DNA from: Lysobacter sp. | Lineage (GTDB): Bacteria > Pseudomonadota > Gammaproteobacteria > Xanthomonadales > Xanthomonadaceae | Assembly: GCA_011526085.1 (NCBI GenBank) | Contig: WYBC01000035.1 | Span: 1 to 64,000 of the forward strand | Length of the DNA stretch: 64,000 nt | Direction of reading: 5' to 3' | Shown: piece by piece, positions 40,208 through 56,713 of the stretch | Layout of the letters: each line of letters starts with the position of its first letter | Numbering within the stretch: position 1 is the first letter of the stretch | Translations under genes and position numbers: made by a program | Notes under the pieces: model-generated | What the model saw: only the letters and a program-made list of their open reading frames with translations | What the model was told of the DNA's origin: nothing | Databases searched by the model: none

Positions 40208-41923
40208 TCACGCGCTTGCCAGCGCCGCCTGATGCACGCCCGCCACCGCGCGACCCGACGGGTCCGCGGCGTTCGCGAAGGCCGCGTCCCAGGCGATCGC
40301 GGCCGGCGACGAACAGGCGATCGACTTGCCGCCCGGCACCGTGTGCGCGCAGCCGTCGCCGGGGAACGCTTCGTCGAAGATCCGGCGATAGAAATACGCT
40401 TCCTTCGTCTGCGGCGGGTTGATCGGGAAGCGCTGCTCGGCCGCGGCGAAATCGGCGTCGCTCACATGCGCTTCGGCATGCGCCTTCAGCCCGTCGATCC
40501 AACCGTAGCCGACGCCGTCGCTGAACTGTTCCTTCTGCCGCCACAGGATCTCCTCGGGCAGATAGCCCTCGAAGGCCTCGCGCAGCACCGCCTTCTCGAT
40601 CCTGCGCGAGCCGTCCGCCTGCACGCCCGCCATCTTCGCGGTGGCGTCCATCCGCATCGCCACATCCAGGAATTCGGTATCGAGGAACGGCACCCGCGCC
40701 TCCACGCCCCAGGCCATCATCGATTTGTTCGCGCGCAGGCAATCGTAGTTGTACAGCGCATCGAGCTTGCGGATGGTCTCGGCGTGGAATTCGCGCGCGT
40801 TCGGCGCCTTGTGGAAATACAGGTAACCGCCGAAGACCTCGTCGCTGCCCTCGCCCGAGAGCACCATCTTCACGCCCATCGCCTTGATCCGGCGCGCGAG
40901 CAGGAACATCGGCGTGGACGCGCGGATCGTGGTCACGTCGTAGGTCTCGACGTGGCGGATCACTTCCGGCAGCGCGTCCAGCCCTTCCTCGAAGGTATAG
41001 GTGAAGCCGTGGTGCACCGTGCCCAGCGCCTTCGCCGCGACTTCGGCGGCGGCCAGATCCGGCGACCCTTTCAGACCGATGGCGAAAGAATGCAGCCGCG
41101 GCCACCAGGCCTCGCTCTGGTCGCCGTCCTCGACGCGGCGGCGGGCGAAACGCGCGGCGCAGGCCGCGACCAGCGAGGAATCCAGTCCGCCCGACAGCAG
41201 CACGCCGTAAGGCACGTCGCTCATCAATTGCCGATGCACGGCCGCCTCGAAGGCTTCGCGCAGTTCGCGCGGCGACACCTGTACGCCGACGGTCGCGTCG
41301 TGATCGCGCCAGGCGCGTTCGTAGTAACGATGCAGCTCGCCGGTGGCGCTGTCGAACCAGTGACCCGGCGGGAACTGGGCGACATCGTCGCAGACCCGCA
41401 CCAGCGCCTTCATTTCCGACGCCACCCAGACGCGACCGTCGGCATCGTGGCCCCAATACAGCGGACACACGCCGATGGGATCGCGGGCGATGATGAAGCG
41501 GCCGGCGGCGCGATCCCACAGCACGAAGGCGAAAATGCCGTTGAGGCGATCGAGCCAAGCACCGATGTCGCCCGCGTCGCGGGCTTTGCTCTCGGCGTAG
41601 AGCGCGTTGATCACTTCGCAATCGGAACCGGTCTGGAACGCGTACGGCTTGCGCAGCGCGCCTTCGAGCGCGCGATGGTTGTAGATCTCGCCGTTCACGG
41701 CCAGGGTCAGATCACCGTCTTCCGAATGCAGCGGCTGCGCGCCGCCGGCGGGATCGACGATGGCCAGACGCTCATGCACCAGCAGCGCGCGCGGTTCGAC
41801 GTGCACGCCGGACCAGTCGGGGCCGCGATGCCGTTGTCGCGCGGACAGCGACAGCGCGAGCGGTCGGAGCGGGCCGAGATCGGCACCGGGACGCAGATCG
41901 AACACACCGAGAATCGAACACAT
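40208..41923 (-). CDS. asnB: Glutamine-hydrolysing asparagine synthetase B
   Basis: 571 aa. Cys2 (MCSILGVFD) is the class II glutaminase nucleophile, with RHRGPDWSGV and VNGEIYNHR in the same domain. The synthetase domain has the PP-loop SGGLDSS at 244-250, then SGEGSDEVFGGYLYFHKAPN. It makes Asn from Asp, Gln and ATP. AGGAG sits 7 bases before the ATG. A 94-base leader segment with alternative hairpins and an Asn-rich ORF lies upstream, pointing to control by asparagine supply. Confidence 0.97.
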   Translation of the reverse strand: MCSILGVFDLRPGADLGPLRPLALSLSARQRHRGPDWSGVHVEPRALLVHERLAIVDPAGGAQPLHSEDGDLTLAVNGEIYNHRALEGALRKPYAFQTGSDCEVINALYAESKARDAGDIGAWLDRLNGIFAFVLWDRAAGRFIIARDPIGVCPLYWGHDADGRVWVASEMKALVRVCDDVAQFPPGHWFDSATGELHRYYERAWRDHDATVGVQVSPRELREAFEAAVHRQLMSDVPYGVLLSGGLDSSLVAACAARFARRRVEDGDQSEAWWPRLHSFAIGLKGSPDLAAAEVAAKALGTVHHGFTYTFEEGLDALPEVIRHVETYDVTTIRASTPMFLLARRIKAMGVKMVLSGEGSDEVFGGYLYFHKAPNAREFHAETIRKLDALYNYDCLRANKSMMAWGVEARVPFLDTEFLDVAMRMDATAKMAGVQADGSRRIEKAVLREAFEGYLPEEILWRQKEQFSDGVGYGWIDGLKAHAEAHVSDADFAAAEQRFPINPPQTKEAYFYRRIFDEAFPGDGCAHTVPGGKSIACSSPAAIAWDAAFANAADPSGRAVAGVHQAALASA

Positions 41924-41959
41924 GGGAGAACTCCTGAGGGGGTTTGTGTTTTCCGGGGT

Positions 41960-41997
41960 CCGAAAGCGCGAAACCCGCGCTTTCGGCGCGGGTTTCG
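41960..41997 (-). promoter_or_regulatory. Mutually exclusive hairpins between the Asn-rich leader ORF and asnB
   Basis: Hairpin A pairs 41969-41980 with 41986-41997 (12 bp, 5-base loop). Hairpin B pairs 41960-41969 with 41977-41986 (10 bp, 7-base loop). They share bases and cannot form together. In transcription order A can form first and B second, as in antiterminator/terminator pairs. No T-run follows either, so the output could be Rho-dependent or act on translation. Confidence 0.62.
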
Positions 41998-42022
41998 GGG
42001 ACTGGGGCGGTATCGCTGGAGC

Positions 42023-42118
42023 TTATGCCTGGTCGCCGTTTCGCCTCGCGCGCACGGTGTTTCCGCAATTATTGTTGCGGTTGTTCGGGCGATTGCGATT
42101 GGAGGAACGGCGGGTCAT
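42023..42118 (-). CDS. Asparagine-rich leader peptide of asnB (attenuation candidate)
   Basis: A 31-codon ORF from ATG 42118 to TAA 42023, too short for ordinary gene calling. Nine codons are Asn (positions 7, 9, 12, 13, 15, 16, 17, 20 and 27), with five of them within positions 12-17. Four of the nine are AAT although neighbouring genes use mostly AAC. The predicted transcription start coincides with the A of the ATG, so the mRNA may be leaderless. The stop lies 26 bases before hairpin A. In known his, leu and trp leaders, ribosome stalling at such codon runs senses charged tRNA; here the matching sensor would be Asn-tRNA. The downstream gene makes asparagine. Confidence 0.72.
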   Translation of the reverse strand: MTRRSSNRNRPNNRNNNCGNTVRARRNGDQA

Positions 42119-42124
42119 GACCCA

Positions 42125-42154
42125 ACCCTAACCCGCGCCCCGCGACGATTGCAA
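42125..42154 (-). promoter_or_regulatory. Promoter of the asnB leader transcript
   Basis: TTGCAA (42154-42149) and TAGGGT (42130-42125) are 18 bases apart on the minus strand. Transcription should begin about 7 bases after the -10, that is at or next to the leader-peptide ATG (42118). Confidence 0.5.
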
Positions 42155-42207
42155 GCCCGGGCGACCGAAATCGATGCCATCCCGCCGCCACGCCGCAGGA
42201 GCCGGTC

Positions 42208-43014
42208 TCACAGCGTCGCCAGCGCCTCGCGGACGGCGGACAGCGCGCGCTGGATCTGCACCGGGTCTTCGGGCGCATGCGCCTGCCCCGGCAGTTCGAC
42301 CAGGGTGCAGGCGTTGCCGAGCGCGCGCAGCGCGGCGCAGGCGCGACGCGACTGCCCGACCGGCACGATCTCGTCGGCGCTGCCGTGCACGATCAGCGTC
42401 GGCGGCATGCCGCGGACGAGGTGATGCTGCGGCGACGCGGCGCGGGCGGGCTGGCCATCGAGCAGCTTCGCCACGGTCGGCCGCACCCAGTCGGGCCCGT
42501 CGTCGGGCAACGGCCCGAGGTCCCACGGCCCCCACAGCACGATCAATCGTGCCGGGCGCTTCGCCGGATCGGGATCGCGCGCGGCCCATGCCGCGAGGTG
42601 GCCGCCGGCGGAACCACCGAGCAGCGCGATCCGCCGCGGATCGATGCGGAGATCGCCGGCATGCGCACGCAGCCACGCCAGCACCTCGGCGACGTCATCG
42701 GCCGGCATCGGCCATCGCACACCGTCCTGCGAGGTCAGCCGGTAATCCATGCTGAAGGCGACCACGCCCTCGCGCGCGGCGAGCATCGCCAGATCACGCA
42801 GTTCGCCGCGATCGCCCGCGGCCCAGCCGCCGCCATGGATCATCAGCACCGCGGGACGCGCCGTGCGTTCTTCGACGTCCGCGGGTTCGTAGACATCGAC
42901 CGCCAGCCGATGCGCGCCGACGCGCTCGGTGCGGGTCGCATCGGCGGTCGCATGTCCGCAGGCCGCCAGCGACGACATCCACAGCAGCGCCGCCAGGACG
43001 CGCGACAGCGTCAT
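42208..43014 (-). CDS. Lipoprotein alpha/beta-hydrolase (HSL-type esterase)
   Basis: 268 aa. A lipoprotein signal peptide ends in the lipobox SLAAC with Cys19. The hormone-sensitive-lipase plan follows: oxyanion motif HGGGWAAGD, nucleophile elbow [11 protein letters not shown], acid Asp in HGSADEIVP and His in [11 protein letters not shown]. It is probably anchored on the outer or inner membrane facing the periplasm and cleaves short-chain esters; the substrate is unknown. It overlaps dapE by 4 bp (ATGA) although the two functions are unrelated, so it rides in the dapE operon. Confidence 0.88.
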
Positions 43015-55736: not shown

Positions 55737-56615
<879 letters not shown>

Positions 56616-56637
56616 TCCACGGCCAAGATTGAAACGG

Positions 56638-56665
56638 AAAACCCGCAGGCGACTGCGGGTTTTTT
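56638..56665 (+). terminator. Intrinsic terminator after tsf
   Basis: A 10-bp stem (56638-56647 with 56654-56663) with a 6-base loop ends in a run of six T at 56660-56665. A classical Rho-independent terminator, so pyrH is transcribed separately. Confidence 0.92.
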
Positions 56666-56713
56666 GTTGCCTCGACGCATGCCCGGCATACCGCTGGACG
56701 GAAGCGGCGGCTT

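Follow-up and report, generated by a model that had tools for sequence, protein, structure and literature searches.

A candidate asparagine-responsive leader peptide attenuator upstream of asnB in Lysobacter and its relatives

Ribosome-mediated attenuators are known for the his, leu, trp, thr, phe and ilv operons of proteobacteria. Asparagine genes of Firmicutes are preceded by Asn-specific T-box riboswitches, and T-boxes directly bind uncharged tRNA. The mechanism of ribosome-mediated attenuation is described in the accessible parts of PMC9413887 and PMC1262725, the latter of which also covers Cys leader peptides of Actinobacteria that have no obvious terminator and for which Rho was suggested. 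Among the papers listed by full-text literature searches there was no asnB leader peptide, and the word asparagine is absent from the accessible part of PMC2965389; an earlier mention is possible, for example in Vitreschak et al. 2004 on proteobacterial attenuators or in Xanthomonas transcriptome work. Here, we analyze a short Asn-rich open reading frame (ORF) upstream of asnB in Lysobacter sp. and conclude that this leader is very probably a ribosome-mediated attenuator that sets asnB expression by the supply of Asn-tRNA. Like classical attenuators, it combines a short ORF rich in codons for the amino acid of the downstream enzyme with a proposed antiterminator and a terminator-like hairpin that would share one arm and, in most relatives, a U-rich terminator tail. 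Unlike them, it would sense asparagine, its start is probably leaderless, and in the genus studied here the U-tract is poor and an additional hairpin (B) competes with the terminator hairpin, so that only one of the two can form. It would resemble the Asn T-box in reading Asn-tRNA charging to control asparagine supply, but its sensor would be a translated ORF instead of an RNA that binds the tRNA directly. With the Cys leaders, as far as they are described in the accessible part of PMC1262725, it shares a codon run of the relevant amino acid upstream of a biosynthetic gene, whereas amino acid and phylum differ and a hairpin follows the asnB leader. We rate as new the amino acid (Asn), the probable leaderless start and the derived three-hairpin form in this genus. 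If the reading is right, asparagine is to be added to the few amino acids for which sensing by leader peptides is known. The case would come from the order of Xanthomonas, Stenotrophomonas and Lysobacter and would offer an example of a sensing ORF that probably begins at the 5' end of its transcript.

The window, by which we mean the whole 64,000-nucleotide stretch analyzed (contig WYBC01000035.1), and six relatives contain no Rfam family at gathering score. The best match to Leu_leader reached 19.1 bits against a cut-off of 50, at model positions 120-145 of 148 and spanning only the hairpin called A below, and the window gave no covariance-model match to a T-box riboswitch. The leader ORF (MTRRSSNRNRPNNRNNNCGNTVRARRNGDQA) lies on the minus strand at 42118..42023 and is supported by its sequence, its conservation in relatives and a window-wide Asn count. 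As the earlier note had claimed, it has 31 codons and stands before asnB; nine codons are Asn (four AAT and five AAC), and five of these fall in codon positions 12-17 (AAC AAC CGC AAC AAT AAT; 42068..42085, minus strand), the proposed stall codons. Among 110,738 stop-free 12-residue stretches in the six frames of the window, only eight hold at least six Asn and all eight lie within the leader ORF, and the 4.2-Mb genome has a single occurrence of AAYAAYNNNAAYAAYAAY.

The leader stop is followed after 99 nt by the start of asnB (571 codons, 40208..41923, minus strand), which makes the amino acid that is enriched in the leader. Its assignment as glutamine-hydrolysing asparagine synthase B, also taken from the earlier note, is borne out by a match to NCBIfam NF006949 (839 bits, E 1.4e-252). 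A Shine-Dalgarno-like AGGAG precedes it at 41931..41935 (minus strand), and an SD-like sequence, by a loose pattern, lies upstream of asnB in 98/103 of the loci introduced below. The genome, which is 97% complete, encodes an asparaginyl-tRNA synthetase (AsnRS) and gave no match to AsnA, and hence this asnB is probably its main asparagine synthetase; asnB itself aside, E 0.001 is reached by just two weaker asnB matches, near each other in C29.

A promoter-like pair stands immediately ahead of the leader, with a -35-like element TTGCAA (42149..42154, minus strand) and a -10-like element TAGGGT (42125..42130, minus strand) that ends 6 nt upstream of the leader ATG. It is the best-scoring pair in a scan for -35/-10 pairs ending 5-8 nt before an in-frame ATG, a gap imposed by the scan itself; a generic sigma-70 scan listed no promoter-like site within 41000..43000, this pair included. 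In a control run on the 97 loci with an ATG start (L027 and L119 have no scorable start), the pair scored at least 9 in 92 compared with 3.7% of shuffles, and TTG was found at -35 in 94 compared with 8.0 expected from shuffles. AGGA- or GGAG-like letters ahead of the leader ATG occur in 19/101 loci and are, by eye, mostly the CAGGAT of the -10 element itself. Given that the promoter-like pair ends just upstream of the ATG, the transcript likely starts at or next to it, and because the -10 element occupies the place of a leader Shine-Dalgarno sequence, the ORF is probably leaderless in most loci. The start on the ATG put forward in the earlier note is thus likely, judged from the position of the promoter-like pair. 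In the locus L169, from a family further removed within the order, the Asn leader is preceded, by eye, by about 30 nt of 5' untranslated sequence and may therefore not be leaderless.

Relatives of asnB were drawn from three sources: named genomes (the best 80 of a longer list), the same genus (11 genomes counting the window's own) and the order, in which 234 of 298 genomes had an asnB match and 64 had none. Among the order matches listed, 60 upstream stretches were picked by hand at about one to three per genus, and 25 divergent asnB loci (61-69% identity) were added from the order. The best-80 list and the picking by hand make the loci a non-random sample. The close set consists of 106 non-redundant loci, in which asnB identity is about 70% or higher. 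L118, L121, L138, L146 and L156 were dropped as repeats of L037, L018, L021, L035 and L024, with which they share an identical leader. L004 and L084 are one genome, and both copies (leader with 8 Asn, present in alignment A1) are outside the counts of 103 and 106. L020, L026 and L031, oddly labelled records whose upstream regions have no leader ORF, are in the 106 and out of the 103, and L131, also without a leader, is in both.

The densest 12-residue Asn stretch of each locus was compared with 40 dinucleotide shuffles. Its density was unreached by any shuffle in 88/106 loci, and 94/106 loci have at least four Asn per 12 residues, while the opposite strand of the same regions has a maximum of 1-3 in 106/106. 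The 12 loci with at most three Asn comprise the four without a leader (L020, L026, L031 and L131) and eight in which a leader thinned to three Asn is still recognizable by eye. Asn-rich leaders hence precede asnB in most sampled loci, in the window's family and in two further families of the order. The earlier note had named a comparison of the matching ORF in relatives as one check on its reading, and the enrichment is present there, which leaves the reading standing. With these data, a chance low-complexity ORF, for which we found no supporting point, has a practically negligible probability, given the Asn enrichment over shuffles, the conservation in sampled relatives and the uniqueness of the leader in window and genome.

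None of the 38 loci from outside the order (L046-L083) exceeded all of its own shuffles, and among the 25 divergent loci one has a leader resembling the asnB leader. In L169 a plausible leader (MFAIYNTINTTNNRLLRSAGSF), followed by a terminator of its own, can be recognized by eye, and the Asn density of this leader is reached by 3/40 shuffles. L172 beats its shuffles, although the three Asn concerned lie a long way from asnB. L165-L168 and L170-L172 carry a divergent asnB (63-65% identity) and no leader in families that otherwise have one, as if the gene and its control had been replaced together.

The peptides themselves share little across the order, by eye, except Asn and, within clades, the 3' part that would also serve as antiterminator. 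This bears on whether the product could be a self-acting, Asn/Arg-rich small protein whose position before asnB is incidental. Leader peptides can act in trans, as set out for peTrpL in the accessible part of PMC7298713, but such a protein would be expected neither from this low similarity nor from the scans of six leader peptides, which gave nothing at cut-off in Pfam or NCBIfam, and it leaves the near-constant hairpin distance and the alternative pairing described below unexplained. We consider it very improbable.

The conserved feature is the amino acid and not the DNA, given that the third base of the Asn codons varies (337 AAC and 312 AAT over 103 loci). The AAT share of the Asn codons is 48% in leaders (312/645; 102 loci from L001-L158, L131 left out) compared with 17% in asnB (55/320), while the other C/T-ending codons, pooled, show no skew (15% in leaders, 18% in asnB). 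A subset test gave 46% against 17% (Fisher p 3e-14). The AAT share is 52% beside another Asn and 38% for isolated Asn, and alternation of AAT and AAC within runs is slight (162 alternating neighbours, 141 expected). The Asn-specific AAU excess bears on which codon of a pair senses better. The queuosine state of tRNA-Asn is linked to AAU decoding, and the excess could mean that the leader answers to AAU decoding, for example through that state, or to a general slowing of translation instead of to asparagine. AAC nevertheless makes up the other half of the Asn codons, alternation may explain part of the excess (although isolated Asn are also 38% AAT), and an asparagine synthetase downstream fits an asparagine signal, so that we give this explanation little credence. 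The linkage to asnB is no independent test of the asparagine signal, since the loci were found through asnB; 17 secondary model matches were inspected for other genes.

Attenuation by Asn-tRNA supply would also account for what follows the leader. A hairpin lies 3' of the leader in 49/49 loci examined first and 103/103 later (L131, having no leader, discounted), with the search confined to about 130 nt past the leader stop. The spacing from stop to hairpin is near-constant at 19-38 nt (median 26.5, 102 loci without L131), and the distance from stop to asnB varies between 78 and 341 nt. In the 92 loci outside the window's genus, the GC core of the hairpin is followed by a mean of 7.6 U in 10. 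In Xanthomonas and Stenotrophomonas the 3' end of the leader (GGCCGATGCGGG) repeats the 3' region of the terminator, which makes pairing with the terminator 5' arm (2:3) possible. This pairing is stronger than that of shuffled leader ends in 65/92 loci at 0.05 and in 47/92 at 0.01. There is also a matched change, with GGUCGAUGCGGG accompanied by CCCGCAUCGACC in L012 where L011 has GGCCGAUGCGGG with CCCGCAUCGGCC; it falls in the terminator loop and hence speaks for 2:3. In an alignment of 23 sequences, one 2:3 pair has changed on both sides, as in 369/500 shuffles, and the covariation score is reached by 14/500. The switch of the relatives thus looks classical, with an antiterminator formed by the leader 3' end and the terminator 5' arm set against the terminator.

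Three further calculations were not taken as support. Cognate leader and arm pairs have a mean of -22.0 kcal/mol compared with -18.5 kcal/mol for non-cognate pairs, yet, because relatives share sequence, cognate leaders reach a median rank of only 0.23. A 1:2 hairpin has 80% of cells paired with weak covariation and was rejected. Equilibrium folding of the complete region under several ribosome positions was dropped given that the terminator prevails in most loci regardless: it exceeds 0.5 in the untranslated state in 94 of 103 loci, and falls below 0.5 at any stall position in only 29/103. Since equilibrium folding favours the terminator even with a stalled ribosome, the attenuator model needs a kinetic argument.

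In the proposed mechanism, transcription would begin at the leader ATG and a ribosome would translate the leader. With ample charged Asn-tRNA the ribosome would reach the leader stop and cover segment 2, so that hairpin A (3:4) forms and transcription ends ahead of asnB. With scarce Asn-tRNA it would stall in the Asn cluster and leave segment 2 free to pair with segment 3 (2:3), which would block A and allow asnB to be transcribed. Conserved Asn-rich leaders, near-constant spacing from stop to hairpin and 2:3 pairing outside the genus favour the Asn attenuator suggested in the earlier note. The conserved Asn-rich ORF, the promoter-like position and the hairpin spacing come from computation, as do two features of most relatives, namely the hairpin with a U-rich tail and, outside the genus, the 2:3 complementarity. 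From these we infer where transcription would start, that the leader would be translated, that ribosomes would stall, that transcription would terminate and that asparagine would govern the outcome.

Hairpin A of the window (3:4; 11 bp, GAAACCCGCGC/GCGCGGGUUUC; 41970..41996, minus strand) is terminator-like, and its GC core is followed by UUUCGCGCUU, with 5 U in 10. Hairpin B (4':5; 10 bp, CCGAAAGCGC/GCGCUUUCGG; 41960..41986, minus strand) is built in part from the A loop and the A 3' arm. Both hairpins of the earlier note, which exclude one another, were found, reading along the transcript, at 41996..41970 (A) and 41986..41960 (B), and both were placed by the sequence and the genus alignment. 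All 11 pairs of A are invariant in the 11 sequences, so that covariation speaks neither for nor against it. B has all cells paired in the same 11 sequences, with one pair that is A-U in five, G-C in five and G-U in one; its covariation score is reached by 5/500 shuffles, in sequences that are related. The covarying position sits in the A loop, which speaks for B being a real structure. The proposed partner of the A 5' arm in the antiterminator is segment 2 in the leader 3' part (GCGCGAGG; 42044..42051, minus strand), as folded by RNAalifold on the genus alignment from the stall position. The 2:3 duplex exceeds shuffles at 0.05 in 0/10 sequences of the genus, and since it is not above chance there, the exact switch in this genus is uncertain. 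RNAalifold also gave a weak inner helix inside 2:3 (GG-GAC-GGC with GCC-GUC-CC; 41998..42037, minus strand), three pairs of which are broken in L087 and L088 and one pair of which falls on a gap of the alignment in all ten sequences besides that of the window.

From the stall (leader position 64), RNAalifold predicts 2:3 plus the inner helix once segment 3 has emerged, A once segment 4 has emerged, and 2:3 plus B once segment 5 has followed. When folding begins at the leader stop, A and B differ little in energy (-21.4 and -21.9 kcal/mol), and A can form before B because its arms are made first. In partition functions, all ten genus sequences have more B and less A when stalled than at the stop for at least one of two stall positions, with best values of P(B) of 0.14-0.98 when stalled compared with 0.00-0.13 at the stop. 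Against the A/B model, A reaches 0.92-0.99 with the ribosome stalled as long as segment 5 has yet to be transcribed, and two of the ten sequences have much B without any ribosome (0.46 in L090 and 0.64 in L093), which that model does not predict. The A/B switch of the earlier note thus stands in part: both hairpins exist in the window's genus, but the relatives appear to have the classical alternation of antiterminator and terminator instead. As to covarying stems, B covaries in the genus, A is invariant and 2:3 covariation is modest in the alignment of 23 sequences. Among the loci sampled, we saw the A/B pair in the window's genus alone, and the U-tract of that genus is poor. There, B, which uses the A 3' arm and the sequence of the would-be U-tract, would lock the read-through state. 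This genus is best explained by a derived form, in which the U-tract is poor and a second hairpin, which covaries, is incompatible with the terminator hairpin.

In the window's genus, the data support the sensor well, and its output is what we infer. The leader could sense Asn-tRNA there and act through Rho or through exposure of the asnB ribosome-binding site, and not through intrinsic termination. The tail after the GC core of A is U-poor (5 U in 10 in 8/10 genus loci, 6 and 7 in the other two), covariation is seen for B and none for A, and one consensus fold allows pairing between the Shine-Dalgarno GGAG and a CUCC that lies upstream of A; attenuators acting at the level of translation are known, according to the accessible part of PMC9413887. 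However, this anti-SD pairing is short and, by eye, missing from L087 and L088, and in the neighbouring genera L016 and L043 have an ordinary terminator hairpin yet interrupted tails, for example UUCGUCGUUUC. At the corresponding position most relatives carry a terminator with a U-rich tail, which points to transcription attenuation as the likely ancestral output. We therefore regard an output through Rho or the ribosome-binding site as unlikely, though well short of negligible. Tentative, and less likely than not, is a broader proposal built on the attenuator reading. It holds that the Asn attenuator class is absent from the searched sources, and that the window's genus may have traded the U-tract terminator for a reversible three-way switch (2:3 plus B with a stalled ribosome, otherwise A). 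Its Asn codons, skewed almost threefold to AAU, would be tuned to feel small falls in Asn-tRNA or a changed wobble modification. With its many genera and varied hairpins, the attenuator family would offer a natural series for how attenuators swap parts yet keep their logic.

A covariance model built from 23 asnB leaders matches the window element at 9.3e-9 in its own genome. Matches of model R1 in 76/119 family genomes were rejected as a measure of prevalence, given the one-clade model, the strict filters and weaker matches that include terminators, opposite-strand matches and ilvC leaders. We inspected 17 of the 18 stretches behind weaker matches (L194 left out). Seven are plain terminators by eye, and ten (L185-L187, L189, L191-L193, L195, L201 and L202, all of the window's family) are branched-chain leaders of the ILVVVLITSP type with a terminator before an ilvC-like frame, for example MLHRHTPPTHDLRTAPSAASILVVVLITSPTGAGRTGV; the IlvC identity was taken from a family scan on one fragment. 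The asnB leader is like them in layout and in that part of the leader 3' end is repeated in the terminator, whereas they have Ile/Leu/Val codons and a ketol-acid reductoisomerase downstream. They are predicted branched-chain leaders built like the asnB leader and serve as an internal yardstick. In the window's own genome, no ilvC leader was seen by eye in 620 nt, almost all of it upstream of ilvC. One weak model match in that genome, at L197 1538-1614 (C21), is a terminator just past a tRNA-Asn (GTT) gene, a proximity that is probably coincidence. Another, at 56573-56667 of the window, is by eye an ordinary gene-end terminator with a clean T-run, unlike hairpin A.
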